64,000 nucleotides of DNA from Isoetes taiwanensis (lineage: Eukaryota; Streptophyta; Lycopodiopsida; Isoetales; Isoetaceae). How positions within the stretch are numbered: position 1 is the first letter of the stretch; each line of letters begins with the position of its first letter. The notes beneath the pieces are model-generated. The model did not search any database. It was not told the DNA's origin and saw nothing but the letters and a program-made list of their open reading frames with translations. Made by a program: the position numbers and the translations under genes. Below are positions 1 to 54,122 of the stretch, piece by piece. Location: positions 1,186,232 through 1,250,231 of the forward strand of contig JAJEKV010000156.1 of assembly GCA_021234155.1 (NCBI GenBank), read 5' to 3'.

Positions 1-1110
1 ATCCCTGTTGCTATGAAGGAATGCTGCAAGACCAAGAAAAATGGGGGGTTAGGTGTGATCAATATAGAGAAGCAGGGTGTAGCTCTTGCAGCCAAATATT
101 TTTACAAGGCAGCCTACAACCAGATTAACCACCCTGTCTCTACTATAATCAGGCATTATCTGGGTAAGTGCACCTCTTATGGGTGGAGGAATCTCAGAAT
201 CAATCTACCCCATTCTATCTATTTTCCTTTCTCGGTTCCCAATTCCACCCCTGGCCTGCTTAAGAAGTGGATCAAGGCCTGGGATCAGGTTAAAGGGATG
301 TACATATGGAAAGAAGGGCTGTCTATGAATCAATCTATTTTTTGGAATCCTGCCCTTCTGGCTAATAACTCTTCTTTATGTCTTGCCTGCCACTTCCCTG
401 ATCAAGCCAAGATCTGGATCTCCAAGGGCATTTGTATGATCAGAGATATGTTCAATGATCAAGGAATTATACCCTACAGGGAATCGGTGCTCTCAGGAGA
501 AGAGGACTCCGAAATGCTGTACAATAACATTTGCTTGATGCTTACTCAGGGTATTTGGACTGATGAGGCTAATAATTGGCAACATAAGGGGAAAGCTGAG
601 TTCAAAGTTAAAAATGCTTACAGATATCTGATGAAGGATCAACCCATGACCATGCACATCAAATGGCAAATTGAGAAGGAAAGGTGTGCCAAGAATCTTA
701 ACTTTTTGTGGTCTAGCCCTACCCCCCCCAAGATTAAATCGTTCATGTGGCAATTGTGGCACAAGGCCCTAGCTACGAACAGCAAAAGATATAGGATTCA
801 GATGACAGACTCAGACATTTGTCCTAGATGTTTGTCTCACAAGGAAGATGAGGACCATCTCTTTAGGAATTGCATGTGGTCAGAATGGGTTCTGGAGCTA
901 GCTTCAAACATGATAGGCACTGACCTTATTTCCCTAAGTTCTGCAGATTTCTTTATGCCCGAGCATCCTACGGACTGGAGGATTTATATTATATTATGGA
1001 GAATATGGAAAGGAAGGAATGAGTTCATCTTCAACGATGACATCATCCACCCGGAAGCTGTTATTAAACTAATTGAATATGACATTAGATGGATAACTGC
1101 AGCAGGTTAA
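1..1110 (+). CDS. LINE ORF2 C-terminal part, zf-RVT zinc-binding domain (5' partial)
   Basis: The frame is open from base 1 to the stop at 1108-1110, about 369 residues, with no internal stop. The start is the post-reverse-transcriptase region (KKNGGLGVINIEKQ, the GGLG motif seen after the RT domain in plant LINEs). Residues about 210-300 form the zf-RVT domain: a tryptophan-rich stretch (PPKIKSFMWQLWHKAL), then CPRC and a downstream H-x4-C (HLFRNC). In the L1 family this protein is the endonuclease-reverse transcriptase that copies element RNA at the nicked target. Only the C-terminal third is visible here. The absence of stops suggests a young copy. Confidence 0.85.
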   Translation: MPVAMKECCKTKKNGGLGVINIEKQGVALAAKYFYKAAYNQINHPVSTIIRHYLGKCTSYGWRNLRINLPHSIYFPFSVPNSTPGLLKKWIKAWDQVKGMYIWKEGLSMNQSIFWNPALLANNSSLCLACHFPDQAKIWISKGICMIRDMFNDQGIIPYRESVLSGEEDSEMLYNNICLMLTQGIWTDEANNWQHKGKAEFKVKNAYRYLMKDQPMTMHIKWQIEKERCAKNLNFLWSSPTPPKIKSFMWQLWHKALATNSKRYRIQMTDSDICPRCLSHKEDEDHLFRNCMWSEWVLELASNMIGTDLISLSSADFFMPEHPTDWRIYIILWRIWKGRNEFIFNDDIIHPEAVIKLIEYDIRWITAAG

Positions 1111-1642
1111 TTTTTCATGTAATGATCCTTATTAAGTTTTGGTGCTCTGCAGGGATTATATTCATGTTGCTGCGAAAACTTAAGTGGAAAAGGATGGACG
1201 AGCAAGCGAATAATGAATGGGTGAAGGTTTTTGGGCCTCCAAACCCGGAAGAGCACAATATGCCATGCTTCTGTGGTTGTTGCTGTGATCAAAATTATGA
1301 TGCCCGCAGAGGCATGATCTGTGAAGCCAAGGATAGCAAGGGGCGTTTTAACATGGCGATGGCGGAATCCTGCATCTGTATTTTCTGTACTCTCTCAATG
1401 ATGGTTAGAGGCAGAGGTCGTAAAATGGGGAATCTGAATCTTAAATCCCATTTCTAGCTTCATTTTATCTCATCCCTGGACAATTTCCTATTAGCTGTTG
1501 TGAACCTAACGTATTTGGCCCGGCTTTTTTTTGCTGATTATCCTTTTAAGCCGAATAACTATACGGGTTATACTTCCCTGTAAAAAGTAGTTTTGTAATT
1601 ATACTTCTATAAATATACTTATAAGCCTTCAATCAAAAAAAA
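1..1642 (+). mobile_element. 3' part of an L1-type non-LTR retrotransposon
   Basis: The window opens inside ORF2 of a LINE. The coding part (1-1110) ends in a zf-RVT domain, and about 500 bases of 3' region follow. The element seems to end in a short A run at about 1635-1642, typical of plant L1 tails. A 122-aa open frame at 1089-1457 overlaps the end of ORF2. It has a cysteine cluster near its middle (CFCGCCC) and may be the last part of the element or chance. The 5' end lies outside the window, so no target-site duplication can be tested. Confidence 0.8.
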
Positions 1643-1677
1643 GTTCCACGATTGGGAGAAGGGTGGGGGGGTGGGGC

Positions 1678-1853
1678 CCAACACTAGGAAGACGAAAGGG
1701 AGATGCAACGAGAGCTGATAAGGAAGAAAAGGGAGGAGAAAGAACTTAAATAGGGAGCAAGAAGGGAAAATAACAAAATAACTACATAATAACTACCTCC
1801 GTACTTCTAGAACTTTGTTTTCCTTCTATTCGGTGAAACGAAGGAAAACACCA
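1678..1853. repeat. Dispersed 176-bp repeat ending in a snapback hairpin, copy 1
   Basis: Nearly identical to 14366-14541 in the same orientation; similarity starts at CCCAACACTAGGAAGAC in both. The right end holds a perfect 11-bp stem, TGTTTTCCTTC (1816-1826) pairing with 1840-1850, around a 13-base loop TATTCGGTGAAAC. Outside the stem both sides carry TTCTAGAAC, and TCCGTA/TACGGA are inverted further out. No coding capacity. Confidence 0.85.
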
Positions 1854-2310
1854 TTTCTAGAACTACTACGGATAGACAAGGACAAGCATGCTGAAAAAGA
1901 GGCAGAGGAGAGCAAAGTAGACTACTTAACAAGGGCCAAGAGTAAGAACAATCACAAGCTGGAAAAAATCTAAGAGTTGAGTGAAATAAAATAACTTTAC
2001 TAGGAGATCACACGCTACCCAAGTTTAAAATCTGAAAGAAAACAATATTCTATGGCGTGAGACATATAGCGGTCGAAGAAGAAAGTGGAAAATAAAAAGC
2101 ATAAATGTTTGTTGTAGTGTGGTTGAGAGGCTTTAAATCAAAGTGAAACAACCATTGTGCTTTCAAACTAGGCACTTCAAGCAACCTTGCTCATAGAAGC
2201 CAACAACTAAGCCAAAACATTGTATAATAAGCACAATACTATATCACTTAAAATTACGTAATAGACTTATTTCTCAACTATTATATTAAATATTAAAAAA
2301 TGCCTCTCTG
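1854..2310. other. No gene seen
   Basis: AT-rich sequence with stops in all frames. I see no repeat, promoter or RNA gene here that I can support. Confidence 0.6.
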
Positions 2311-3390
2311 TTAGCAAGCAAGAAGCGGCCAAGGCCAGGTGAGGCAAAGAAGCGATAGATTAGGCAAAGAAGTGGACAGGCCAGACCAAGGAGTAACAAA
2401 AAAGATAGAAAAACTTCTTTGACTTCTAACAGAAGGAAAAATAGCGGTACTCTGTCAAAAGAATGATACTAGACTAAAGCGAAATGCTTGCAGATAGTGA
2501 AAATTTTAGAGAAGCGATCTGGCAGAAAGATGATACTAGAGCCAAAAGCCTTGAGATATAGTTCTTAGTGATTCTCATGATCGGAAAAAGCAAGCTCATG
2601 GCCAGAATCGAGCTCAAGGTAAAACATAATTTATCACCAATATAAAAGTCACTCAGACTTCCATGCTACCGAATTGAAGGGATTTCATGCTGCCAATTGG
2701 TAACAAGAAGTTTTAGCATTTAACGAGGATCTAGTTGAAAAAAGAGGGATGTCTACAAACTACACGGGCAAAATAAAAACTTCAAATAAGACCAGTCTCA
2801 TCTCTTAATGTCTAACAATTCCATCAAGCTTCCTTGACGTTTTACAGAAAAGAAAAGTAGAGTAGTGATTATGGCAGAAGAATGATGGCAGAAGAAAAAA
2901 CTAGAGCCTGGACAAGAGCCTGCAGATAGTTCTTAGCAATTGGAATAGAGCTCCGTGCTACTGATTTAAAGGGAAAAGAAACTTTCAGTGTTGCCGATTT
3001 ACCAGCTAACACGAAACATCTAAGAAAAATTCATACACCAGTTAAAATAGAGATGTTACTGATCTAAATGAAACAGGTCAAACTGCATGGGTACCTGGAT
3101 TTGCAGCCCTATACTTACTGGCCAATCAGCAATATTCATTGATTCCTCTGCATCGATAGATAGCAACACGTCTCTTGATACCTCAAAGCCTTTGTTCTTT
3201 CGAGTTTAGCATCTCTGTGTCTAATTCAAAAATTGATCATGCCTGCCCCTTAGAAAATAAACACCTCTTCTAAATATTGCCATTTCTAAAGCCAGCCTCG
3301 CCACAAGGCTGGCTACTCGGCTTCATAGGCCACTCGACTTCATATTTTATTTCTGAGACTTTTACAGAAAGACAAGCAACTTGCATATTG
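2311..3390. repeat. Dispersed repeat, copy A (uninterrupted)
   Basis: About 1.1 kb that aligns in patches with the sequence on both sides of the 9-kb transposon. 2311-2440 matches 3800-3890 (AGAAGCGG, CTTCTTTGACTT, ACAGAAGGAAAAA). 2655-2755 matches 3920-3930 joined to 12902-12990 (CCATGCTRCC, AATTGAAGGGATT). 3230-3275 matches 13250-13295 (TTGATCATGYCTGCYCCTTA). Copy A has a single ATGC at 2663-2666, where copy B is interrupted and has two. No coding capacity was recognised; it may itself be an old non-autonomous element. Confidence 0.75.
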
Positions 3391-3779
3391 ATCATGATAT
3401 TTATATGTTTCCTTTGAGGCTTTTTATAAATCTGCAGATTGTTCATGATGTTTCTCGAACTAAGCTTTCTCTTTCTCTGTATGCTTTTATATTAAACTTA
3501 CAGTCCATGAGGTTGAGAATGCAAAGAACTGAAAGGAAAACAATAATTTCCATACTTAATGAAACAGATGACAAACAGGGCCGCTTATCTGGAATGGAAT
3601 CAATATTTGCTCCTACTTGTGCAGACAAGACATGGATATTATAGAAACCTTGAGTAGAAATCTGATCACACCAAAATAGCAGATTTTCTCTTCGAAATTT
3701 ATGGCTCCATCTACTCTTGGTTTCAAAGCTGTAAGCGGTCTGCATGAGCCTAGAAAGCTTCGATCACATATCTAGCGAT
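3391..3779. other. No gene seen between repeat copies
   Basis: Short open frames exist on both strands (3381-3644 +, 3443-3745 -), but they overlap, start arbitrarily and show no recognisable domain. I treat them as chance. Confidence 0.5.
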
Positions 3780-3930
3780 GACCGGCAACGACAACTGTGG
3801 GCAAGGCAAGAAGCGGTCAATGCCAAGCTAGGCAAAGAAACGGCCAAAGGAAGCTTCTTTGACTTGTGACAGAAGGAAAAACGAGTAAGGATTTGGCATC
3901 ACCCAATCAAAAAGCCTTAGACTTCCATGC
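3780..3930. repeat. Dispersed repeat copy B, left part (ends in TSD ATGC)
   Basis: Left flank of the 9-kb transposon, matching copy A at 2305-2440 and at the CTTCCATGC near 2660. The last four bases, ATGC (3927-3930), are the left target-site duplication. The repeat resumes at 12898 with a second ATGC. Confidence 0.75.
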
Positions 3931-3952
3931 GGGTAAAAGCACGCTGTGGTGT
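3931..3952 (+). repeat. Left terminal inverted repeat
   Basis: 22 bp starting GGGTAAAAGCACGCTG, the exact reverse complement of 12876-12897. Just inside, a block ACGCCACATTTTGG (3972-3985) also occurs near the right end (12835-12848) in the same plus orientation, so it is flipped relative to the TIR. Confidence 0.92.
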
Positions 3953-4191
3953 ATCAAAAACGTGCATTTTGACGCCACATTTTGGCATCACCTTTGTGGT
4001 AGAATCGGGTGGTGCATACCAAAGCGGAGATTGCGGGAGTGCGAATTAATGAGCGTCGGTTATTTTGAATTTTATGCCACGTCATTGTCCACCTTTTTGA
4101 ATTAAGAAATAATCACCTCTTCTCTGTTTTTTTGCCGCTTCTTGCCGATTGAACCCCTAATGGAGTCGAATTGAACGCCATCGGTTACACG

Positions 4192-6265
4192 ATGAAATCT
4201 CTCCTCAAACAAGAGATTGTGCCCCACGAAGATCTAAAGAAGCTTTGGGGTGACGGGGTTTCAAATAAATCTGCTGGTATTTTCCCCCAAATGTTTTGTT
4301 CAAACTGAAAAATTAAGGCATATGTTTTCTTATATGGGTTGAAGAATCCGAGCAATGAAAAATACAAAGAGTTCATGCAAATTTACAAAAGAATTACAGG
4401 GAAGCCACATACATGGGGTGGAATGGCTCTGGAAACCAGGCGATGGCTTATTATCCGCATATAAAGGGGAGGTCATTAATTGAAGAGCTTCTGGATTATT
4501 ATAAAACTCCCGATGAGAAAGCAGAGGCCGTTCTTCTAGACCCAAGAGAAAGCATAGGCAAATCCAACCCCGACGAGGAGGAAAATAGTAAAAGTGATGG
4601 GGGATGATGAAGATGATAGGGAAAAAACCAAATCGGGTTCCTCTAGACCACACATTCAATCTGAACTCACAATCAAAACAAGAAAAGCGAGCAATGTTAG
4701 AGACCAAAACATGCCATTGCGGGTATGTTCAATTATTAGTTGTGTTACAAACAGAAAAAATCTCAAGCTTGATCTAGATTATTTCTATCAACACGTAAAA
4801 AGGTAACATCAAATCCACTTCAAGAATCGGGTATGTCTACTACCATTTTACATCATGTTGGGTGTATTGTCATGTTGTGTCTCTATGATGCCATCTGTGG
4901 GGCATTTAGGTGCAATGGATGCCGAATGATAGATGAGGTATGTGTGGTGGTGGTGAGTCACTGGCATCCACCATGTCCCACACCACACCCCCACCATCTC
5001 CCACCACTACACTCTACCATCTCCCACCACCACACTCCCACCACACACCACCACCACACTCCACCACCACCACCACACACACACCACCACCACCACTCCA
5101 CCACCACCACACCACACCACCACGGACTCCACCATGTCCCACACCACAATCCACCACCACCACAACCACACCACACCCCACCACCACACCCCATCACCAC
5201 ACTCCACCATGTCCCACACCACACTCCACCACCACCACACTCCACCACCACCACCACACACCCCACCACCACCACCACCAAACCCCACCACCACACCTCA
5301 CCACCACCACACACACCACCACCACCACACACACCACCACCACCCCACGACCACCACACACACCACCACCACCACCACAGCGTGTTGTGTGGTGTGTAAT
5401 GTGCAGCGTATGTTGTGTGGTGTGTGGTATGTGGTGGTGTGTAGAGACTACCTTGTGTTGTGTGGTGTGTGATTGTGGTTTTCCATCAGTACGTGGCATA
5501 CTATGTTAGGAGGCTGACATATACGTAGTGTTTTGTTTTGCAGACTATGGCAGACTTGTGAAGGAATGGTTGGCTGCAACATCAGCTAGGTTTGATAGAT
5601 GCAAGCAACGATTGCAAGCAAACGAGGATAGGAAAAATGATATCAAAAGAAAGATTGAGTTGATGGAGCATAAAGCATCAGAAATTAGAGCTGATTTGCC
5701 TGGATGGCAATCAATCATGACAAGACAAATCCAGCGTGCAGAGGGTGTTCGGGTTGTAAGCGAACTAAAGGATGAAGAGCTAAATGGTACAGTGTTGCCT
5801 GGGCTGAAACAATTAAATAAGGAATTAGCAGAAACTGAAATTGAGCTAAAGGCATGTGAAGACTTCTTCACTGAGCTGCTACCCTCGAATGCAAAGATTT
5901 GAGATTTTTTCCGGCGTAGTGGTCATGACACTCCTTTAGATCCTGCACTTCCAATGCTTCCTGAGGCAGAAGAAGAGGGTGATGAAGGTTGTCCATTTTG
6001 TGGACGTTGTCTGAAATGGGAGGGTAAAATGTTGCCAGTTGTGATAGCAGAATGCAGTCACCAGTATCACATTCCATGTCTATCACACCATTTGAGGTAA
6101 ATATTATCATCTCTAACCCTCGCCTAAAGACTCTATTGATTTTGAATTTGTTTTACGTGACACTCTAGAACCTGCTGTAGCCCCGGTTGTGCCCACATTA
6201 TGACCGACATGGCTTTTGGCTTTTGGTGTTCAAGTGGTACCACAAGAACCAATAGACACAAGTAA
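4192..6265 (+). pseudogene. Coiled-coil plus RING-like zinc-finger protein (transposon cargo), damaged
   Basis: Likely three exons. The first region begins about 4192 (MKSLLKQEIVPHEDLKK) and runs to a donor at 4723 (CGG|GTATGT), with at least two frame changes around 4310 and 4600. The intron holds the CCACCA array and ends TTTTGCAG at 5543. Exon 2 (5544 to about 6100) encodes a charged helical stretch (EWLAATSARFDRCKQRL and on, about 110 aa), likely coiled coil. It then has an in-frame TGA at 5900-5902, an acidic linker and CPFC, C-x-H-x2-H, IPC. Exon 3 (6169-6265) supplies CCSPGC. The Cys/His spacing resembles a RING finger, suggesting a ubiquitin or SUMO ligase-like role; this is inferred. 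It is the outermost plus-strand gene of the transposon. Confidence 0.55.
4939..5476. repeat. Tripartite GTGTGGTG - CCACCA - GTGTGGTG array (left)
   Basis: A short GTGTGGTGGTGG start (4939-4953) is followed by about 415 bases built almost only of CCA, CAC and ACC words (4967-5380). The strand bias then flips abruptly to TGTGGTGTG words (5381-5476). The flanking blocks are complementary to the middle block, so the array could fold back. It lies in the predicted first intron of the RING-like gene. Long His/Pro- or Gly/Val/Trp-rich frames through it are artefacts of the repeat. Confidence 0.9.
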
Positions 6266-6891
6266 GTCCAAAGAGGGGTTTAAGCAAGGTTTGGGAAGTC
6301 TCGATGCTTGTACTCGTGTCTCTTTCATCCCGGCTTAGTCTCTTCCATCCTCGGTTGGCTTAGTCTTTTTTTGTCCTGTTTATTGTATCTAAAGTGCCCC
6401 CGGGGATGAGATCGCCGCTCATTTTAGGGGGCACTTTAGATATATATAAACAGAAACATCGAAAGAGAGTAAAAAGCCCGTGCGTGACCCTCTTGAATGG
6501 TTGTCAACTCACCAAAGCTTGATATTGTTCGCCGCAAAACAATATAGATTCGGCCGCAAACAAGTGCCTTAACTAATGTTTATGATGTTGTCACAGTCTA
6601 CTTGACTTAGTGTTTGCGAAATTGCGTAAATTTGAGACCAAGGATATCCAACGCTTATCCACGCCTCGATCGCTTATGAGGCCTAGAAGATACCTCCCTA
6701 TTGTACCTAGAATTCACCCCATTTGATACTCCTAAGTCAATCCCAGCTGCTGACGACGTGGAGACTCCAAAACGAAATTTGGATAGTCAACTGAATGCAG
6801 TCGTATCAAGTAAGTACCGATGCCACATACATGATTTATTTTTTTGTATTTTTCTGTGGTCTTCCTCATTTCAATTATGTTGCAGAGATAA
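6266..6891. other. Region between RING-like and HAD genes
   Basis: Mostly non-coding. A possible upstream exon of the HAD gene ends with a good donor at 6808 (ATCAA|GTAAGT), and an acceptor TATGTTGCAG ends at 6885. However, a TAA sits directly before the ATG at 6892, so how this exon joins is unclear. 6440-6475 (ATATATAAACAG) could be a TATA region; this is weak. Confidence 0.35.
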
Positions 6892-7769
6892 ATGCTATTG
6901 CAACTGGAAGCCATCAATGAAGAGATTCCTAGTGCATCTCGATTTAGGGGGAAAATTAATTCCCTTGAGATTCATTCTGTACGGGGTCCTTCACCAGAAA
7001 AAAGTTTTGGTGCTGAATATGAGCCAAATGCGGATGCAGGTGATGAAGTTGACAAAGAAACCCCGGATCCTGGACAAGATGCAGACTGCTCAACGAGTCC
7101 AATACAACCTCAACCACGAAAAACCAAGAGATTAACTGAAATTCTCCTTGTTCTGGATTTTAATGGGGTTTTAGGCAAGTTTTATGACTTGAAAGAGAGG
7201 ATCCCTGCATCGGCCGAGCCAGAAGTGACCATCCAGAAATTGAACCATCAAAAGTTCGCAGTTTCGGACACTGGATTTCGGGAGTTCTTAGAATGGTGTT
7301 TTCAAAATTTGAGATTGCATTGTGGTCCAAAGATGGCTAAGAGTAATGTTGACTTGTTGATGAGAAAGTTGTTGCAGGAATATAAGGGCAGATTTCTTTT
7401 TATTTGGAATCAGGATGACTGCACCAACACAAAATTAAAAGTGGTTAATAAGCCAATTTTCCTTAAGGATCTGTCCAAAGTGTACCGGAAATTTTGGAGA
7501 TACCAGATGACAAACACATTGTTGATAGATGACAAATAGATATAAGGGTTCTCGCCAACCAAATTAACACAATGATATGTCCAAATAGTTTTGCTCCCGG
7601 CAAGGTTGGATTCCAATTTCCTTTTGGAGCAACCCAAACCATGGTGGAGGGACTTAAATGCTGCGAAAGTGTGCCCGCTTATGTGAAGGAACATCAAATG
7701 TGGAACATGTGGGATTCTGAAGAGTCGCGCAACTGCATGAAAATGCTCGACAAGTATTTTCATAAATGA
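6892..7769 (+). pseudogene. FCP1/NIF-type HAD phosphatase-like domain (transposon cargo), frameshifted
   Basis: ORF of 215 aa (6892-7539) after an acidic, low-complexity N-terminus. HAD motif I is LLVLDFNGVLGKFYD, with D-x-N-G where active FCP1/SCP phosphatases have D-x-D-x-T, so the second aspartate is replaced. Further on, FLFIWNQDDCT and NTLLIDDK match the later HAD blocks, the latter being the conserved DD motif. The stop after LIDDK (7537-7539) is followed in another frame by a continuing 65-codon stretch to 7769, probably the C-terminal part of the domain, so a frameshift is likely. This family dephosphorylates proteins such as the RNA polymerase II CTD in other organisms; activity here is doubtful. 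It sits between the RING-like and Ulp1 genes on the same strand. Confidence 0.65.
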
Positions 7770-7884
7770 ATCTTGTAAAACTCTTTGAAAGTCAATATAA
7801 GTAAAAAAATTTCTATGATATGTGTTGTACTTTTTCAATTTAAAATATTTGAATGGATTGTGAGCAAATGTTCTCATGTGTGTT

Positions 7885-8663
7885 TAGAACTAGAGATGAT
7901 AGAACTTCGGCAGTCCCTGACTATCTAAAGCCAAATACCCATCTGGAAGTGGTGCTGAGTGGAACTGAAACTGTCGTGATTAGCTCCACCAACATCAAAA
8001 TTTTGGAAGCTGATACGCAGTGGTTCAATGATCAATTGATCCTCCTCTTCTCTAGGTGATACTTTCATCTGATTTGTGATCATCAGGATTGTGCCAGATG
8101 ATATGCATATGTTTGCAGATACATGAAATACTACTTGATTCTCCAAGGAATGAGCCATCCCTTTCATTTCTTTGACCCTCTTTTTCACTCGACATTGTCC
8201 AAGGACACAAATAGTTACAAACCAATAAGGAAACATGTGAATCTGGATAAGTGCCAGTACATATTTTTGCCTGCTTGTGATGGACATCACTGAACCTGTT
8301 TTCTGATTGTAAGCCACGCGTGTCTCGCACAGAGATATAAACAAGGGATATATCACTTTGATAGCTCGGGCTTGCATGGCAGAAGCAGACATATTGAGAG
8401 GTTAGTGCTTGCTCATTGCATTTTGCTGTTGTGGCACAATGACAACAAACTTTGAGTGCAGGTTCCTGGAATTGCTTGGACACAATAATTTCAGCTTTAC
8501 AACCTCAGATGTTGTGAAAATTTCCAGAACGCCTCTTCAAACCGATGGTCATTCATGTGGCCCTGCCGTATGTTCGTTTATGCACAAATTTGTGAGGGGG
8601 TACTTGAAAGGAGTGAATATATTGTTGCATGATCTAGTAAGTCAACTTAAATGCAGCAGATAA
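7885..8663 (+). pseudogene. Ulp1-type (C48) SUMO/ubiquitin-like protease domain, one nonsense codon
   Basis: Four exons join in frame through GT-AG borders: 7885-8055, 8119-8308, 8333-8400 and 8462-8663. Exon 1 has the typical Ulp1 entry (IKILEADTQWFNDQLI). Exon 2 has the strand before the catalytic histidine (YIFLPACDGHH). Exon 3 has the catalytic aspartate (YHFDSSGLHG). Exon 4 has the glutamine and cysteine (PLQTDGHSCGP). So the H-D-Q-C set of C48 peptidases is readable. The tryptophan that normally follows the histidine is a TGA stop (8291-8293), the only break I see. Ulp1 enzymes cut SUMO precursors and conjugates in the nucleus. Ulp1 domains are repeatedly found in plant and animal DNA transposons. 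Exon 1 may begin further upstream, at ATG 7853, or join the HAD gene. Confidence 0.8.
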
Positions 8664-9044
8664 ACCAAACTCTGTTATTGACAAAGTGTGGTTAACTGCA
8701 CGTTGTGGACATTTCAGACCAGGATCTAGTTGATGTTAGAGTGTTCATGCTTGAAGTTTTAAGATTAGAAGCAACAAAAGCTAGAACTGAGAGGAACATA
8801 TGTATTGGGAAGTATGTAGGTGCATGAGCCACCTCGTACTTAAATCACTGTATATCTTTCTTATGTACATAATTGTTATTGTAACCTCGATTCATTTCAA
8901 TGAAAATTCATATTCAATTCATCTCACAAACAAAGGAATCAAGTGTTTCAGAAGAATTCAAATCTTCAAAAGAAATCAAGACAAACTCATTTTCACAGCT
9001 GAAGCACAAAACTTCACATGAGTTCTGAAAACTACATAATGGTT
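8664..9044. other. Spacer between convergent Ulp1 and transposase genes
   Basis: AT-rich with no supported coding. It must hold the 3' ends of both convergent transcripts. CAATGAAAATTC-type AT-rich words near 8900 are compatible with polyadenylation signals but not diagnostic. Confidence 0.4.
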
Positions 9045-10903
9045 TTACATTTCATCATCATCAGAAAGAACTTCGGGTAAATTCTGTAAAATTTTCTCCT
9101 CATCTAAAGGATCCAGCCTATATACAGTCCTGTTTTGACGTTTAGTTGGTGGCATGTGAAGTCTCACAGATCTGTGTTGTGAATACTATGCCTAAGGCGT
9201 CTTTACTGCAAAGATCATAGCTGACGGTTGATCTTGCGCCCTTCTTGTAATACATACCTTCTATGACACTATCACCGGCGAGGTACCATGTTCCATTGAG
9301 TTGGAAGTCTTTCTCCACTATCCATTTTGGTTTTGTGCACATCAGAATCCAAAATTCAGAACCCTCATCATTCCCTTTCGGAGCAACGACAGCAAAATTA
9401 TCACCAACTCTAAGTGCCTCTGCTAACATCGTGGGATTGGAGGAGAACAGATTTACGGTCCTCAATGTCAGCATGCACATTGGAGGATGGTACAATAACT
9501 TGAAGTTTCCAATCATCAACGTAGTGCTTGTTCACACAACTGTCCCACATGCCATCCAAGCAGTAGCTGCAGAAGCATGAAAGTTCCCTCGTGTGCAACT
9601 GCAATGGAGATTCAGGATTGAATGCATGTACACAATGGATCTGCCTAGTGTCCAAAATCCTTTCTGCACCCCATGCTTTCTTTCTATCTATATCCTCCAC
9701 CTTGACTTCCCAAAAGAACCTTTTTATATTCTTCCTCTTACTGGTTTCAGATGTGTTCATCCACTCGGATGTTCCACAAGTAAACATCTCTTCGGCAACT
9801 TCTACCACTTCATGAGCATTACCCAATTTTATGCTGTTGTATTTTAATTGCAGTTGTCTTAACCATCTCTTCAACTCAGCAGCTTTGCCATCGTGTTCAC
9901 CTTTCCCGTGGTTAGAACCAAAACAATTCCACATCATATAGACATCAGTGTCGTTTGTGTACCTAGCCACAAAGTAAAATGGTCTAGAAGCCTTGAATTG
10001 AGATGCTGCACCATCTGAAAACACATAATGTCTCTTTGGAACCCTTCCTTTCTGCTCCAGATATTTGTGGTGCTTCATGAAGCAGTGTTGCACGAACAAA
10101 GTATCGTGTTCCCTATCATCTGATACATAGTAATGTGTTTCCTTGATAATCTCATCTGCCACTGAGTCATACTGATATGTTATTTGAACCAAAATGGTAA
10201 TCTGGTTATTGACCCAGCGCATCGACTGCACCTCCTCTTGTTCCTTGAATGTATAGTTCTCTGCAAAATCCACTACCGAGAGACATGCATCTGCTGGGAG
10301 ATTCTCCAGAAGCTCCTTAAACTGTTTTGCCTGCCATTGGTACCTGAAATTATGCAGTGGAAAGATTTTTAGACGCTCTTTCAGTTTATCCAGAAGCTCC
10401 TTGGGTTCTGTCTCATTGTACTGATGAGTCAGTCTCCTACCAGAACTCGAGACATTGTCTTTTTCATAGTCAATGTACTCCCATTTCACTTTCCTACTGC
10501 CACTTCCTTCCATGGGACAGGTCTGAAACTTCTTGATTCCACACAGCTCACAATTTCCAAGGATGCACGCCTTCTTGTGAAACTCATCTAATTCACTCTT
10601 TGGACACAATATAGATCTCCACAAGCTTCCCAGACTTGCAATTTTATGCTTTGGTGTGCCCCCGCATTGACCAAGTTCATGTGATCTACAAACATCGCGA
10701 GTGCAAGTGCAATTCTTCTGGATGTTTGGTTCTCATCCCATTGAGTCCATCCACTAGCATTTGCATCCTCACGTCTTTAATGCAACAAAGAACTATTGAA
10801 GTCCTTCAATTTCACAACAAACCAGGGTTTTAGCTTCTCAAAAGCTCGAAGACGAATCTTAATTTCTGGATGTTGGTCCAGAAACCTCTTGAACAATAGC
10901 ATC
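9045..10903 (-). pseudogene. DDD-like transposase, main exon region, frameshifted
   Basis: The core is a 404-aa ORF (10624-9410). N-terminal to it a further frame (10903 to about 10650) has FLDQHPEIKIRLRAFEKLK with one stop. The core starts with a zinc-binding-like set (CILGNCELCGIKKFQTC). It then shows three acidic motifs: VVDFAENY (D1), FSDGAASQFK (D2) and HGKGEHDGKAAELKR (D3), with spacing like DDD/E transposases. Near 9440 the frame shifts into a conserved-looking tail (GDNFAVVAPKG, WYLAGDSVIEGMYY, 9519-9142). Near 9155 it shifts again into an acidic tail ending at 9045-9047 (LSDDDEM). This should be the enzyme that cuts and joins the element's TIRs. I propose Sola-like on the triad and the 4-bp TSD, not on a family match I can verify. 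Confidence 0.7.
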
Positions 10904-10931
10904 TGCATGAAATGAACACTAAACTGTTAGG

Positions 10932-11740
10932 ATGTGTATACCACACCAAACCATGCACCATACCATGCCCCACACTCATCATATTCACCAGAACGAGCAC
11001 CTTAGTGCTGTGTACATTACCACACACCACACCACACCCCACCACACACCACACCATTCACCACACACCATACACCAAATGATGGAGTGTGGAGTGGTGG
11101 TGGAGTGTGGTGGTGGGGGGTGGTGGAGTGGTGTGTGGTGGTGGGGGGTGGTGGGGGGTGGTGGTGGAGTGTGGTGGAGTGGTGTGTGTGTGGTGGTGGG
11201 GGGGTGGTGGGGGGGTGGTGGTGGGGGTGGTGGTGGTGGAGTGTGGTGGGTGGTGTGTGGTGTGGTGGTGGGGGGTGGTGGTGGTGGTGTGTATAGTGGT
11301 GTGTGGTGGTATGATGTGGTGTGGTGGAGGGGGTGTGGTGGTCGTGGTGGTGTGTGGGTGGAGTGTGGTGGTGGTGGAGTGTGGTGGGGGGGTGTAGTGG
11401 TGGTGGTATGGTGTGGTGTTGTGGATTGTGGTGTGATGTGGTGGTGGTGGAGTGTGGTGGTGGTGGTGGAGGGGTGTGGCGTGGGATGTGGTGGGATGTG
11501 TGTGCATGTGGTGGTAATGTGGTGGTCGCAAAGATGTGGTGGTAGTCTATGGTGGTGGGATAGATGGGGTGTGGTGGGGTGAGGGGGGAGAATAAATAAA
11601 ATTGAATCCACACATATCATACATTAACATGCACACACCCACATGACACCATGGACACAACGCAACCCACACCACACCACACCACACCACACCACACCAC
11701 ACCATCACGACACCACACCACACCATCACGACACCACACA
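10932..11740. repeat. Tripartite array (right), inverted relative to the left one
   Basis: Plus-strand order is ACCACACC words (10940-11070), GGTGGT/GTGGTGGAGTGT words (11085-11545), then ACCACACC words (11640-11735). Read on the minus strand this is GTGTGGTG - CCACCA - GTGTGGTG, the same order as the left array. It lies in the predicted first intron of the transposase gene, so both gene transcripts would carry the C-rich form of the middle block. Confidence 0.88.
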
Positions 11741-12296
11741 TCACATCACATCACTTTTATCATATTTCGTCTGACATAAGAAATCTGCCTAGCCTGCTCT
11801 CATAAACACTTCTGAAATTCGTACACCCTGATAATAATTACATTCCTCTTCTAATCATTAGAAAAGGATCTGGGTCCTAAATCCTGTTCCTACGTCTGAT
11901 TTTTGGCGTTTCATTCCCAATTCGCGCCAATTCGAACAAGTTCATTCCGGCAACATGGTAGGAGGGATGTTCAGAGATCACTACGGCTATTGTAGAGTGA
12001 GCGAGGAGGGCATTCGGCACATGTTAAACAGGGCTCGTGATCAATCTCTGAAGGTGGATATGCCTAAATTCACCTTCTTTGCTGATTTCGAATCCAACCT
12101 AAAGGCATACAAATGCAATCGATGCCGGGCCTTCAATGGCTATGCTTGGAGTCGATTGACGGAAGAGAGCTCTTAGACGAGTCCATGAGCTTATGTTACA
12201 TGTCACGCAAGGGCAGTGCGTATATTTGTTCTCTCGTCACTTGTCCGGCCTCGACTCTCAGAACAACGGGTTTTACTGGCAGAATTGCGTACTTAC
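11741..12296. other. Right subterminal region, possible plus-strand exon
   Basis: A plus-strand frame starts at a good ATG (11955, preceded by CCGGCAAC) and runs 73 codons with CNRC in it. After the stop, another frame continues for about 80 codons. It is not recognised. It overlaps the predicted first intron of the minus-strand transposase gene, so it could be a small antisense gene or chance. Confidence 0.25.
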
Positions 12297-12625
12297 CACC
12301 AGGGGATGCAGGAAGCACTGGCAAACCTCATCCTGTCCAATGTTTTATCCCTCAAAAAATCAAGTAAAATTTCTTTCTTCGTGCTATCCTCCATTCTTTT
12401 GGTCTGTTTATGGAAAGACGTTAGCAAATTAAGGACAATACGGCGTTTACTGCTTGCACTTCTTGATGAACCGGATCCTTCTGCCAATTCTGCAAGCTCC
12501 AATTTTTCTTCTCTTCTTCTTTTCCTCTGGCGTCTTTTCTTCAACATTTCTTGTTCCTTGGTTCTTCTTCGTTTTCTCCTGTCTGAAATGCCGGTTTGTG
12601 GACAGATTACCTCATTGACATCCAT
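12297..12625 (-). CDS. Probable first exon of the transposase, with basic nuclear-localisation segment
   Basis: Minus-strand frame from ATG at 12625 to a perfect donor (GGTG|GTAAGTAC, exon end 12297). It encodes about 110 aa with a very basic run (RRKRRRTKEQ, KKRRQRKRRR), then a helical, charged part. Bipartite basic runs of this kind act as nuclear-localisation or DNA-binding segments. It lies 0.25 kb from the right TIR, the usual place for a transposase start. The next exon would begin at 10903 after an acceptor TTTCATGCAG, making the GGT array intronic. A longer open frame (12931-12293) continues upstream through the TIR, but I consider ATG 12625 the better start. The linkage of this exon to the core is inferred. 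Confidence 0.45.
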
Positions 12626-12875
12626 ATCCACAATGGATTGGAGCTTGCAGCAGGGAGGGAGCCAAAGAACAGGACGTAGGCAAAGAACAGGAAGGGGCCA
12701 AAGAATAGGAATTTGAATTTGAATTTTAGTTTTTGAAATTAGAATTTCCCCCACAAATTGGGACTCTATTCTTAAATAACGGCAGCTGAGCGGTGCCATA
12801 ATTATACTTTCATACCACAAAAGTGGTGGATGCAACGCCACATTTTGGGGGGACAGGGGGGGCAGCCGAATTGGA

Positions 12876-12897
12876 ACACCACAGCGTGCTTTTACCC
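12876..12897 (-). repeat. Right terminal inverted repeat
   Basis: Exact reverse complement of 3931-3952 over 22 bp. It is followed directly by ATGC (12898-12901), the right copy of the target-site duplication. Confidence 0.92.
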
Positions 12898-13400
12898 ATG
12901 CTGCCAAATTGAAGGGATTCCATGCTGCCAATAACAGGAAGTTCTAACCTCAAACAAGGATCTCATTGAAAAGAGAGTGCTTATAGATTCATATAAAAAA
13001 TGACAAATCACAGGCAAACTCCAAAGAACGCAATAGCAAAGATTATGGGAAAGGCTGTCAGGTATAAATATAATCCGAAAAAGAAAAACAGAATGATTAC
13101 TTATCTGGATCTGAATCCGCTGTTCCGAGTTGCCATCGAATCATTGCTGGGCGTACCACGTATTTAAGGCCTGTGCTATGCCTGAGGGTTTTCATGACCT
13201 CCTAAATCCGTTCATTTAGCACCATGAAAAGCTGTAATTGCGAAGCGAAACTTGATCATGTCTGCTCCTTAAGAAAATAGACTGCCGCTCTTATAAACCG
13301 AAACCACCGACTATGGTTCCTGTGGCTTCTAGAGACTTCACAGAATACGGCAAAATAGCCTACTTCACCAAATGGCTTTTGCAAGCAGATAGACAGAAAT
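12898..13400. repeat. Dispersed repeat copy B, right part
   Basis: Continues copy B beyond the transposon. 12902-12990 matches copy A 2667-2755, and 13250-13345 matches 3230-3370 (TTGATCATGYCTGCYCCTTA, GAGACTT). No coding capacity seen. Confidence 0.7.
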
Positions 13401-29333: not shown

Positions 29334-31232
29334 TTAAGAATAAGTGAGCGAAAATTCAACAATGCATAGCTTTGGACCTTTATACAAGAACCCATTAACG
29401 ATCTTATATCCATATGCATTGCCATTTTGAGCTAACAACCAAATATCCTTATAATCAGGGTCAGTGGCATACAATGGCTTCATTTCCTCCAAATGGTTGG
29501 ATTGTGCTATAGAAAGAGAACAAACGTCATAACGTCTACTTAAAGCATCAGCTACAACATTCTCTTTACCAGGACGATAATCCACTGAGAAATCATAGTG
29601 CTGCATAAAAGCAACCCATTTCAACCGCCTTTCCGATAATGTTTTTGTGAAACAATGTGCCTAATGCTTTGGTGGTCGGGTCAAAATATGAACTGTTGAC
29701 CCTATAAGATAGTGTCGCCACACTTTCAAAGCATGAATGACAAAATGAAATTCCTTATCATAAACACTATATCTACTTTCTCAGATCGAAAAACTTCCGA
29801 CTTTCATAAGCAATAGGATGACCATCCTCGCATCAAAATCTAGCCCAAAGTCATACCACTTGCATCAACACATAACAAGAAAGGTAGACCAAATTTTGGC
29901 AAACGCGAAATCGGGAGGATTAACCATGGCATCCTTTAAAACTTGGAAAGCAAACTGATGATTATGATTCCATTGGAAAGGAACATCTTTTCGTAGCAAC
30001 AAATATAAATCTGAAGCTAAGCGAGCAAAATTCAGACAAACTTCCTATAATAACTGCGCATAAACCCAAAAGGGAACGAATGCAAAGAATCGGAAGTAGG
30101 TGCAAGGCCAATCCACAATTGCTTGTACCTTACTGGGATCAACTTTAAGACCCTCAGCGCAAACAATATGACCCAAATATTCAATTTTCGATTGGAAAAA
30201 TATACTTTTCTTAGGATTAAGAGTAATAGACTCCTCCCTTAACCGACGGAAAACCTCCCGCAAATGCAAGTAATGATCTTCCTCGGACTTACTAAAAACT
30301 AATATGTCATCAAAGAACACGACAACATAAACACCATGCACATCTTCAAATATTCGCCCCATTAGCCTCGCAAAAGAAGCTGGCGCATTTGTAAGTCCAA
30401 ATGGCATGACTAAAAACTCATAATGTCCAAAGGTTGTCCTAAACGCAGTCTTGTGAACATCTTCAGGCGCAACCTTAAGTTGCCAATACCCTGACTTAAG
30501 ATCAAGACGGCTAAAAACTGTGGCACCTTGGAGTTGATCAAACAAATCATCCGCCCTTGGTATAGGAAACCGATTCTTTATGGTTATCTTATTCAAAGCG
30601 CGATAATCTATACACATGCGCCAGGAATTATCTTTTTTCTTAACCAACAAGACAGGAGCACCAAAAGGTGAAGAACTATGGCGGATCAATCCAGCTTGAA
30701 GTAACTCATCAAGCTGGCGCCTAATCTCAACTTGTTGGCCATGCATTCTCCGATAAGGAGCTTGATTAGGAGGTTCTTTCCCTGGAAGAAGATTAATCCT
30801 ATGGTCCTTCAAACGTTGGGGTGGCAAAGTTTGTGGAATTTCATTTGAAAAGACATCATCAAAATAATGCAAAAAGATTGTTTGACGCTCATTTAATGGG
30901 GATACATCTAACTTAGAACGCAAAACCACCAAATACACAAAATGAGTTTTCATTGCCAAACGTTTAAACTGTACAACAAAAACTGTGGGAATAGGGGACA
31001 CAATATCATCCTTCACAAACTTGAAGGTCTTTTTACCCCCTTCCAAGGATAACATAACAATACCCGCTTTCCAATCTATAAGAGGATTAATAGCCTTATG
31101 CCATGGCATGCCGAGAATAATATCCATACCTCCAAGGTCAGAAACCATGAAAGAACGTTTACAGATATATCCCTGCAATTGAAATTCAACATCCTTGACC
31201 ATAAATGAAGAAGGCGGAGGGGCAACATTCAA
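29334..31232 (-). pseudogene. Gypsy protease, reverse transcriptase and RNase H region
   Basis: A long intact stretch (31232-30045, 395 aa) has the end of the protease (GGMDIILGMPWHKA), then RT: GLIRHSSSPFGAPVLLVKKK, WRMCIDYRALNKIT, PFGLTNAPASF and the catalytic FFDDILVFS. RNase H follows in broken frames and ends DYRPGKENVVADALSRR (about 29550). The RT catalytic aspartates are kept. The region 29630-30040 between RT and RNase H contains several stops. Confidence 0.85.
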
Positions 31233-31254
31233 GAAAGCAGAAGATAATTCTACA

Positions 31255-32509
31255 TCACTTGATAAAGGAATAGAAGTTAATTTTAGTTCTTTTACCGAAG
31301 CGAAATAAAATCAAACTCAACCGCCCGGGATCGAATAGGACATGTACTTTTTGATCTTGAATAGTAGCCCAAAATCGTAAGAGACTACTATTCTCAACAG
31401 AATCCATATCCGATTTTTCCCGGACCGTAGCCACCTTCTTCCCTTTTCCATCTCCGCGAACAGAAGCTACTTTCTTACTTTTATCCTCTTTCTTAGTCCT
31501 AGACTTAAGAGTAGGTGTAGCTTCCTTTCGTTCCCCTTTCTTCTTTTCCAAATAAGTAGGGTATTCATAAAACTTATGATCAGTTGCATAACAAACAAAA
31601 CACTTATTTTCCCGCATAAGCCGCTTCTTGCGTGCTTGATACGCGGGTTCATTATCTGCAACATCTGTGTGCGGCCGTTTGAATGGCCCAGACCCTGGAG
31701 CAGATCCCATTGATTTATCACGAAAACCACTCGCCTCTTTCATAGAAACTTTGAGGCCACGTTGAGCATTAATGGCTTCAGTAAGGGCCAAACCTTCCTC
31801 CTCTACTTTCTCTGCCATCTTACAGAGCTCACCAAAAGAAAGATTGGCAACTTGCAGGTCGAGCTTTGCCCGTACCCAACGATGCACCCCACCCATGAGT
31901 TTTTCAGACTTCTCAGTATCATTTTTACTAAGCTGAAGTCCTTTCTTTAAAACTTCGTCTGCGGCGGAAGGATCGAATAGTTTCCATGTTTTGTTGGGTC
32001 AACTTATTCCATTCAGCGATAAGATCGCCCCCAATTATGACCCAAAAACGATTTTTGATTTGCTTTTCAAATTCCGCCAAAGGTAACAATAGGGTCGTCG
32101 GTATTGGTTCTTACGGATATCCAGCCACCAGTCCTTTGCAACCCCATCCAGATGACGCTCAGCAAAATACAACTGAGTGTCTTCGTCATCCTTAGTCTTA
32201 GCAAAATATGAATTCAAATCCCGGAGCCACGCGAATAGTTCATCCGCATCACTAGTAGCAGCGGAATACTTTTTGAATTCAATTTTGACATTGGCACCTG
32301 TTTTGATGCCACTACGTGGACACCACGCAGACTTCTTTCAATCTGCACCACCTAGCGGCTCATGAGAATCCAATTCTTGCAGCTCCGCGCGCACTTCGAG
32401 CCTCGGCGGTGCAAGTTTTTCTCATGAGCGAATTATCATGCTCTAACTCAAAAAGTTTTTCCTTGAGCTCTTCATCTTCCAAGTTAACATTGGCAGGGGA
32501 ACCGGCCAT
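31255..32509 (-). pseudogene. Gypsy gag with broken zinc knuckle and protease active site
   Basis: Starts at ATG 32509, just after the primer-binding site (MAGSPANVNLEDEELKEK), with an early stop. The capsid part (LYFAERHLDGVAKDWW, near 32130) and a later 213-aa frame (31896-31255) follow. The zinc knuckle CFVCYATDHKFYEYP has lost its last cysteine (Y instead). The protease active site reads FDPG rather than D-T/S-G. Both would disable the element. Confidence 0.75.
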
Positions 32510-46590: not shown

Positions 46591-48254
46591 TTTTTTTTTT
46601 TTTTGAAGGACGGGAGCCAAAAAGTTTATTAATCAGATAAAAAGTACAAAATTTACATGTCTCATCTAACTGTGTAAGCACAAAAAGATGCCATAGGAGC
46701 AGAGCCTGGAGCACAATGTACTTACTCCAGAATAGGAGAGATAAGAATCAATTCGAAGATACTGAATCCAGATGCGTTCCATCATTTCTAGTCAAGGGAG
46801 GAACACTCATAGGCTGTCAATACCTTTTTCTGGGCCACCGTAATAACACCGCGTACAGAAGAATTAATGATCTGAAAGATGTGGTGTCTGCGACGCTCCG
46901 ATATCGACCATAGGAGCCAACCGGAACCAAGATGGAATGCCCTTTGTTTAGCTGGAGGCCATGCATTGGGATAGGACGCCAAGAGGATGCATCGGCAGTC
47001 CAATGTACTGTTGAACAAACCTTGTACCCAGGTCCATACTGGTTGAACCTCAGGACAATCAAAGAGACAATGCTCAAGAGTCTCAACATCCGAAAGACAG
47101 AGTGGGCATACTGCAGATATGCGAGGATCATAGCGATGTCGGAAGGCATTAACCCGCAGACACCTGTGGATAACCTGCCACCACAGTACAGAGACTTTAG
47201 GGTGGAGCAACCTATCCCAAAGCCATCGCCATGTACGACACAAAGTGAGCTGTGGAACCTGTAGGTGCCACCCATCTGGCAACTGGAAGGGCTGTGGTGC
47301 TAAAAGAAGGCGATATATTGATCTGACAAAGTGCTTGGCTTTGTGAATATTTTCATGACAGTCCCATGGCACCCTTTCAGCAACACCAACTTGCACTATA
47401 AGAGACAAATTTTCTGTGACCTTCTCCCATAGAGATACATCCCAATGAGAGAGCAAGAATTTTGCCTGAAATTCAGGCCAAGACAGTAGGCGACCCGCAT
47501 CATACCATGCTTGAATAGAGACAACACCTGCAAGAACCCATCGTCTCTGTGTAAGGGGATGAACTGATGCTGCCAATGGAGGTGCTGAGGGGTCTAGAGG
47601 CAGTAGGTTGTGGATAGAGGGGCAAGGCCAAAAAAGATGTCTGACCGTCTCCCATGCTGTCAACAAGCCACGCAAAAATGGAGAAGCACTTGGAAAAGGC
47701 TGCAGAGCCTGAAATAAAGCCCAAGGTAGGACTGGTTTGACAGCCTTCTTGCCTAGAGGGGTATAGTGACCAAGAGCTTGTTTAAGAAGGCGTGAACCAG
47801 GAGAGTCATCCTCACCATTCAGGAGTCTCCAAATGAACTTTGAAATAAGCACTTTGCTCTGCAGTAAGAAGTCCATCATACCCAGACCACCTGCCCACTT
47901 TGAGAGGATGCACTTCGACCAAGCCACCTTAACCACACCACCTTCCTCAGTACCCGCCCAAATAAAGTTCCGAACTATTGCAATGAGCTCACACACTTTG
48001 ATCTGTGGGGCTAGCAGTAAGGATGCCATATAAACATAAGTGGGTACTACTAAGGACTTACTTGGCCACTGTAATGCGACCCGCAAGAGACAACTTAGCG
48101 GTGGACCACCAGAACAAGTGCTTCTCCAAACCCTTAATAATCTCCTCCCATGCAGCTCCCATAGTAACATGGATGCCAACTGGAATCCCCAACAACTTGA
48201 TGGCTTGTCCATGCGCAAGTAATTTCCATGGATAATCGTGAACACATGCCGGAG
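46591..48254 (-). mobile_element. 5'-truncated LINE with poly(A) and 16-bp TSD, family C
   Basis: Identical 16-bp copies of CTATTCAAAAGATTTT lie at 46575-46590 and 48255-48270. A run of T (46591-46604) is the minus-strand poly(A) tail. The 1664-bp insert contains the C-terminal half of ORF2. This is a clean target-primed insertion, 5' truncated. Confidence 0.9.
46788..48245 (-). pseudogene. LINE ORF2 C-terminal half with zf-RVT domain, one frameshift
   Basis: A 485-codon frame covers most of it. The first part (about 48245-48070) is in the wrong frame. The right frame there reads LLGIPVG, WSTAKLSLAGR, and joins near 48065 with SLVVPTYVYMASLL, so one shift is needed. It then reads normally: FIWAG, KWAGGLGMMDF (the GGLG motif), a Trp-rich region and the zinc-binding CPLC with H-x4-C (HCLFDC, about 47060). 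It differs from the LINE at 1-1642, so a separate family. Confidence 0.85.
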
Positions 48255-52148: not shown

Positions 52149-52161
52149 TTGAGTCCCGGAA

Positions 52162-53961: not shown

Positions 53962-54122
53962 GCAGGCTTATTTAGAATATATTATTTACAAAGACCTGCA
54001 GAGGGAGGAAATGCTTCATCCATGGCAAATAGTTTCATATCACAGAAAAAAGAAAAACAGCAGAAATCAAACCCCTGAGCCATCGAGAAGAAGCTCAAGG
54101 AAATCTAAAAAAACTGATTTCT

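Follow-up and report, generated by a model that had tools for sequence, protein, structure and literature searches.

The 64,000-nucleotide stretch of Isoetes taiwanensis DNA analysed here (the window) contains, at positions 3931-12897, a transposon of about 9 kb with a transposase gene on the minus strand and coiled-coil/RING-like, HAD/NIF and Ulp1 genes on the plus strand. It belongs to a repeated family, designated family A, to which two further families of the same genome, B and C, are related. The terminal inverted repeat (TIR) GGGTAAAAGCACGCTGTGGTGT is present at 3931-3952 (plus) and 12876-12897 (minus) with 22 of 22 bases identical, and no matching pair was obtained across 100 shuffled windows. 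The flanking letters read ACTTCC-ATGC at the left and ATGC-TGCC at the right. The original prediction for this DNA, made from the letters alone, had reported the perfect 22-bp TIRs and the ATGC on both sides, and both were confirmed; its label 'composite' is not apt, because the element is a single transposon that has a gene set of its own. The features are listed below with their positions, strand, description and basis, where dN/dS denotes the ratio of nonsynonymous to synonymous substitution and C1066 a diverged family A copy.

About 2629-2746, plus strand: paralogous empty target site (self-comparison and junction alignment).
3927-3930, no strand: left target site duplication (TSD), ATGC (single ATGC in the empty-site paralogue).
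3931-3952, plus strand: left TIR, 22 bp (TIR match and genome-wide counts).
4192-4722, plus strand: N-terminal coding block of the first plus-strand gene, frameshifted here (present in 10 of 10 full copies and in C1066).
5544-6096, plus strand: coiled-coil/RING-like exon (CPFC...CxHxxHxxC) with one in-frame stop here (motif, dN/dS, weak syntenic match to families B and C).
6168-6280, plus strand: probable following exon, which would encode the final Cys residues of the RING-like motif (deduced from splice sites).
6590-6809, plus strand: probable exon upstream of the HAD exon (GT after the exon in 11 of 11 copies; gene boundary deduced).
6886-7769, plus strand: HAD/NIF (FCP1-like) exon, motif I DFNGV, with frameshifts here (PF03031, dN/dS).
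7868-8827, plus strand: Ulp1 (C48) gene with exons at 7868-8055, 8119-8400, 8462-8636 and 8718-8827 (PF02902, dN/dS, catalytic residues).
9045-10902, minus strand: transposase exon 2, comprising the candidate DDD core (DFAENY...SDG...HGKGEHDG) and the C-terminal part, frameshifted (motifs, genomic matches, dN/dS).
11955-12337, plus strand: open reading frame 5 (ORF5), in the transposase intron, truncated here (intact with 161 amino acids at L053:3595-4077).
12338-12625, minus strand: transposase exon 1, basic N-terminus, with its 3' part deleted here (comparison with other copies).
12876-12897, minus strand: right TIR, 22 bp (TIR match).
12898-12901, no strand: right TSD, ATGC (flank reading and empty-site alignment).

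The window copy is decayed. Every gene carries a stop or a frameshift, including a stop codon in place of the Trp of the Ulp1 HW motif, and the stretch that holds transposase exon 1 measures 951 bases, compared with 1,782-2,946 in ten other copies. The window gene products were scored against Pfam as hand-joined read-throughs. The predicted arrangement of a transposase facing three cargo genes on the opposite strand holds as a layout, but the gene list was incomplete, as ORF5 and the N-terminal block also lie on the plus strand. ORF5 has about 160 amino acids in fuller copies, and the transposase intron that contains it also holds tandem TGG-type repeats. The three Ulp1 introns begin with GT in 31 of 33, 36 of 38 and 37 of 37 copies; among the copies listed, they end with AG in 27 of 30, 30 of 36 and 29 of 36. 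Upstream of the RING-like exon, an AG acceptor was read in just five of the nine copies listed, which may be explained by an alignment offset. Long simple repeats, CCA-rich at 4960-5380 and TGG-rich at 11080-11580, lie in probable introns on mirrored sides of the element, and the copy L046 likewise has a long simple repeat. A strong hairpin at 6376-6453 (81 nt, 79% self-complementary) lies between the RING-like and HAD exons, directly 5' of a TATATATAAA-like box. A search for a solo long terminal repeat with a 5-bp TSD inside the element (6150-6800) found none; three 4-bp, chance-like candidates emerged.

The target site could be read from within the window itself. Self-comparison showed that a repeat surrounds the element on both sides and that a second copy of this repeat is located at about 2300-2750. 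When the flanks were joined via one ATGC, they aligned through the junction to the uninterrupted paralogue at about 2629-2746 with a score of 133 (maximum of 300 shuffles, 44.5); retaining both ATGC copies produced a gap of exactly 4 bases. Since ATGC is single in the empty paralogue and the gap is 4 bases, the insertion duplicated 4 bp. Chance occurrence is ruled out for the TIR by the shuffled windows and for the TSD by the empty-site alignment.

Other copies were sought in the genome assembly (1,658,258,908 bases in 1,110 contigs). Allowing up to three mismatches, the TIR was found 791 times in forward and 732 times in reverse orientation, a total of 1,523, whereas the control gave 2 and 1, a total of 3. 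TIR pairing used 73 tabulated places out of 100 listed (contigs with more than one place) and yielded 21 plus/minus pairs of 9.5-26.6 kb, with none shorter. The ten shortest of these were fetched as ten full-length copies, and in each of them all seven coding segments were found, covering at least 66% of the respective query and with order and orientation unchanged, between perfect 4-bp TSDs. The TSDs are AAAA, TTAT, CATG, CAGT, AAAG, ACGT, AAGA, CATG, TACT and TTCA, that is, nine different words. Mutual identity among the ten copies and the window copy is 89-94%, and the family A copies are read as an old burst. It had been proposed that full copies should share the genes and the 4-bp TSDs, and that the cargo would be an accident of this locus if other copies lacked the genes. 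All ten copies share both, which contradicts a locus-specific cargo.

Searches with individual genes gave at least 88 genomic matches for transposase exon 2 (76 of 12,800 candidates scored) and at least 312 for Ulp1. A whole or partial Ulp1 gene is present within the 1.5-kb flank of 28 of 30 transposase loci, the window's own locus being among the 30; the remaining two are L053, where Ulp1 lies just beyond the locus, and L054. C1066 (L060 plus L053) is a diverged family A copy with 79% nucleotide identity in the HAD-Ulp1 part, in which all plus-strand genes are present and the frames are open except in the N-terminal block. ORF5 has no significant Pfam hit and has an uninterrupted match in C907c, 54% identical over 156 residues.

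The Ulp1 product exceeds the PF02902 cut-off (E 5.3e-7, window read-through), and its catalytic residues are kept in nearly all copies: the two adjacent His of GHHW in 36 of 37 and 31 of 37, Asp in 37 of 37, Gln in 36 of 38 and Cys in 37 of 38. This is the His-Asp-Gln-Cys set of a Ulp1/C48 protease, the domain originally proposed. A second repeated Ulp1 (C48) class was also seen, in which 25 of 52 listed PF02902 matches have a 91-amino-acid open frame, mostly covering profile positions 130-201 (for example C1018:21193245-21193472); it is perhaps another transposon family with Ulp1. The HAD product exceeds the PF03031 cut-off in the window read-through (6.8e-7), in the unbroken C1066 frame (2.9e-15) and in families B (3.8e-21) and C (3.2e-21). 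Conserved positions in family A copies are the motif I Asp (10 of 10), a later Ser (11 of 11), a Lys (10 of 11) and, in the last motif, both Asp (11 of 11 and 9 of 11). The predicted HAD domain thus stands, but the phosphatase-like reading does not extend to motif I, which is DxN and not DxD: DFN in all 10 family A copies with the codon and in C1066, and DLN in the B and C copies. Canonical HAD phosphatases require the second motif I Asp, and with Asn in its place binding or weak activity would be expected. The nearest solved relative of the family B domain is UBLCP1 (3shq, E 4.5e-4), and the NCBIfam models HAD_IIID1 and HIF-SF_euk match below their cut-offs. The PF03031 domain is shared with UBLCP1 and the FCP1/SCP phosphatases; the DxN form of motif I is that of families A, B and C here. 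The eight Cys/His ligands of a RING-H2 motif are complete in B and C, as read by eye, and in A the last pair spans an intron and is irregular. The transposase contains a candidate D-84-D-40-D triad, whose residues are conserved in 39, 39 and 37 of 40 copies and have aligned counterparts in B and C. It gave no significant transposase hit in Pfam or NCBIfam (in Pfam neither an integrase nor a Mutator hit), no useful match in the PDB and no confirmed match in scans of genome and viral contig collections.

Coding constraint was assessed by comparison among copies. The fraction of stops is 0.002-0.013 in the correct frames and 0.024-0.099 in the other five frames, with one exception of 0.002. For the transposase core, Ulp1 and ORF5, comparison among near-identical copies gives an in-frame ratio below that of each of the five other frames; for HAD and the transposase N-terminus it is below all but one. 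For deeper comparison, dN/dS was determined between C1066 and the majority codons of the other copies using nucleotide-level codon maps. The values are 0.17 [0.12-0.24] for the transposase, 0.29 [0.17-0.52] for Ulp1, 0.41 [0.25-0.65] for HAD in the C1066 reading frame and 0.52 [0.32-0.90] for the RING-like exon (11 copies; 0.42 in another count). Shifted sense frames of these four genes gave 0.87-1.83, and those of the RING-like exon 0.93-1.48. Judged from these substitution patterns, the transposase, Ulp1, HAD and RING-like genes were constrained at the protein level while the main copies and the one diverged copy separated.

Families B and C were recognised through their HAD domains. The PF03031 search of the genome gave at least 151 matches (150 of 3,261 candidates scored), and the matches listed include 101 at 61-85 bits, of which 91 are stop-free. 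The high-scoring matches are those that we take for host phosphatases; among the matches listed they are clustered, twelve of them on C1018 at 22.9-26.9 Mb. Two of the 101 lower-scoring NIF loci were read, L061 (family B) and L062 (family C), one copy for each family. The family B copy spans 1349-8732 of its locus (7,384 bp) with the TSD ATCA on both sides and the TIR GGG[C/T]AAAAGTATG[C/T]TGGTGGGTA; the family C copy spans 430-7317 (6,888 bp) with TIRs identical over at least 26 bases and the TSD TACT. In both, a coiled coil with RING (CxxC...CxHxxHxxC...CxxC) and a HAD domain are encoded on the plus strand, convergent with a transposase on the minus strand. The transposase core is 50% identical to that of family A in B and 35-48% in C, with 31-43% in other parts. 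Between the families, identity is 27-33% for HAD and 21-33% for the coiled-coil/RING part, for which the match of B to C is strong (E 2e-21). Neither Ulp1 nor ORF5 gave a significant match in the single copy of B or of C that was read.

Among the matches listed, 15 of the 101 lower-scoring NIF loci, including L061, lie within 6 kb of one of 132 tabulated family B transposase matches, in every case on the opposite strand, where 0.1 would be expected. The gap between the NIF and transposase matches is 1,159-1,409 bp in 12 of the 15, and the remainder comprise gaps of 222 bp and 2,267 bp and one match on the far side. The gap of L061 is 1,159 bp and holds no Ulp1. From the resemblance of 12 of the 15 gaps to this Ulp1-free one and from the layout shared by B and C, RING plus HAD looks like the older pair in the lineage, with Ulp1 as a family A feature; Ulp1 and ORF5 were seen only in the window's family A. 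Ulp1 may have been gained by A or lost by B and C.

For the family B TIR, 925 and 939 occurrences were counted in the two orientations (control, 6 and 6). Among 64 tabulated of 100 listed places, 18 TIR pairs were found, six of exactly 251 bp, nine of 740-937 bp and three of 6.9-10.2 kb. The short pairs have no room for genes and are therefore presumably mobilised in trans; the six 251-bp pairs form a very uniform set of the RING-HAD lineage that resembles miniature inverted-repeat transposable elements. A further transposase relative, 62% identical over 291 columns, is present in C963 (L059, C963:12112800-12119000), together with an ORF resembling transposase exon 1 at 5094-5390 of L059.

Several results weigh against the favoured reading of a cut-and-paste transposon with an accessory module. 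The RING-like and N-terminal parts have no reduced in-frame ratio when near-identical copies are compared, and dN/dS against C1066 is indistinguishable from neutral for the N-terminal block (0.60 [0.38-1.10]) and ambiguous for ORF5 (0.54 in frame and 0.53 in frame +2). Low values (0.32-0.63) were also obtained for antisense frame 2, which leaves third codon positions in third place. The predicted RING-like gene is supported by its motif and by two related families, but all Pfam RING profiles score below their curated cut-offs in A, B and C (best 5.6e-4, in B), and the RING-like part of A matches those of B and C weakly (E 0.002 and 5e-4 within one locus). Phosphatase activity of the HAD domain is doubtful with the second Asp missing. 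AlphaFold models of the transposase reached a confidence score (pLDDT) of 33 alone and 32 with nine natural segments, with no residue above 70, and leave the RNase H fold unsupported. The short family B pairs make the accessory genes seem unneeded in cis. Finally, no accessory genes were found in the 6.2 kb read at C963, of which about 5.3 kb lies downstream of the match, and the ends of an element were not found there; C963 could represent a relative of simpler build, a stray gene or a broken copy.

Elsewhere in the window, a retroelement is located at 30045-31998 on the minus strand (reverse transcriptase PF00078, E 6.9e-40), adjoined by a long ORF without a Pfam hit. Pieces resembling long interspersed nuclear elements are present at 46788-48254 and 52153-54825 (zf-RVT, E 3.2e-12; DUF4283, E 1.2e-14), also with an endonuclease-like ORF below the Pfam cut-off (E 4.7e-4).

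Sola elements have 4-bp TSDs and a DDD transposase, and Sola3 is specific for TTAA targets; to our knowledge, Sola has no RING, HAD or Ulp1 genes. The original prediction took the present element for Sola-like. Compared by description, the element resembles Sola in its 4-bp TSD (11 family A copies, one B and one C), its candidate triad would agree with a DDD transposase and, unlike Sola3, it has varied TSD words without TTAA specificity. There is a little less than an even chance that it is a plain member of Sola or another named superfamily, with a gene set seen before outside the literature searched. The TSD and the candidate triad fit Sola as the original prediction describes it. Against this, no description of a transposon with RING and HAD genes was recognised in the literature search, with Repbase Reports and most subscription journals outside its scope. 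Mutator-like elements have TSDs of 9-11 bp and capture genes, and a Ulp1 domain is found in fish Zisupton elements.

Further comparisons drew on two papers. Ginger1 elements have ends of the type TGTNR and the TSDs CCGG or CCGT/ACGG, and some carry Ulp1 or OTU domains, fused to an integrase-type transposase (PMC2836005). The present element shares with them a 4-bp TSD and the association with Ulp1 but differs from that description in its GGGT ends, its varied TSDs (AAAA, TTAT, CATG, CAGT and others), the lack of an integrase Pfam hit and a Ulp1 that is apparently a separate gene on the opposite strand, and it was not assigned to Ginger1. Mutator elements of several organisms carry Ulp1 according to the same paper (PMC2836005), and a plant DNA transposon with a Ulp1 gene is Mutator-like to that extent; the 4-bp TSD and the absence of a Mutator Pfam hit exclude this assignment. 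In the second paper, Zisupton has 8-bp TSDs, fungal transposons of several superfamilies carry TET/JBP dioxygenases, with TET/JBP genes near KDZ transposases, and the CMCT clade (EnSpm, Lanisha, Plavaka) has 2-5-bp TSDs and, in most cases, CA..TG termini (PMC12730594). The likeness to Zisupton/KDZ would lie in accessory genes that act on chromatin, TET/JBP in the fungi, and the empty site with its 4 bp does not fit the 8-bp TSD given there. The TSD length falls within the range given for CMCT, and the termini GGG..CCC in A, B and C differ from the CA..TG described for most cases there. Zisupton/KDZ was rejected on the TSD and CMCT/Lanisha on the ends.

We infer the function of the module, either regulation of transposition or relief of host silencing. 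The transposase would be an RNase H-like nuclease of the DDD type, cleaving at the TIRs and cutting the target with a 4-bp stagger. The plus-strand RING and HAD parts, as one gene or two neighbours, would form a nuclear accessory factor in which an E3-like RING is combined with a DxN HAD domain able to bind a phosphorylated partner or to act on it slowly, and family A would add a SUMO- or ubiquitin-like protease, Ulp1. Acting through ubiquitin/SUMO marks, such a module would most likely modulate the transposase or lift host silencing.

Anti-silencing or chromatin action, as opposed to a direct role in transposition, is proposed tentatively. The accessory proteins could instead be transposition machinery itself, engaged in end binding, transpososome assembly or transposase turnover; this is a substantial possibility, though it falls short of an even chance. 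Each of the three families read encodes RING and HAD convergently with its transposase, as a two-part machine would lead one to expect, and the nearest solved HAD relative is UBLCP1, which acts at the proteasome and at the C-terminal domain of the polymerase. Against a required machine part stand the B and C copies read, in which Ulp1 was not found, and the C963 transposase, which has no accessory genes in the stretch read. A more specific form of the counter-defence proposal is unlikely as it stands, namely a dedicated protein that would unite a coiled-coil RING E3, by fusion or by coupling, with a HAD domain acting as a DxN pseudo-phosphatase and would mark a host silencing factor for turnover, with Ulp1 stripping SUMO in one family. 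Pack-type capture, in which this locus or one recent subfamily would have picked up host gene fragments by chance, is very improbable: plant Mutator elements carry Ulp1 genes (PMC2836005), and the genes of the window copy are broken, but all genes are present in 10 of 10 full copies, dN/dS is well under that of the shifted sense frames, and B and C have HAD at 27-33% identity with a RING-like part in the same place, so that for RING and HAD chance capture appears already contradicted.

The reading that we favour, and hold to be probable, is that the window contains a decayed copy of an autonomous cut-and-paste transposon family, A, with an accessory module. With still greater confidence, RING and HAD, together with Ulp1 in family A, are regarded as an integral and selected accessory module. 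The anatomy of a lineage with an integral RING-HAD module, plus Ulp1 in family A, is strongly supported by the comparisons within this genome. DNA transposons with one accessory enzyme are already known; a RING plus HAD pair maintained across families whose transposase cores are 35-50% identical is undescribed as far as the literature searches reached. If the more specific counter-defence proposal is true, the module would correspond, on the ubiquitin/SUMO side, to the TET/JBP genes in fungal transposons. The three families of this genome, which differ in whether Ulp1 is present in the copies read, offer a natural comparison, and they raise the testable question of whether eukaryotic transposons may carry ubiquitin and SUMO tools against host silencing.

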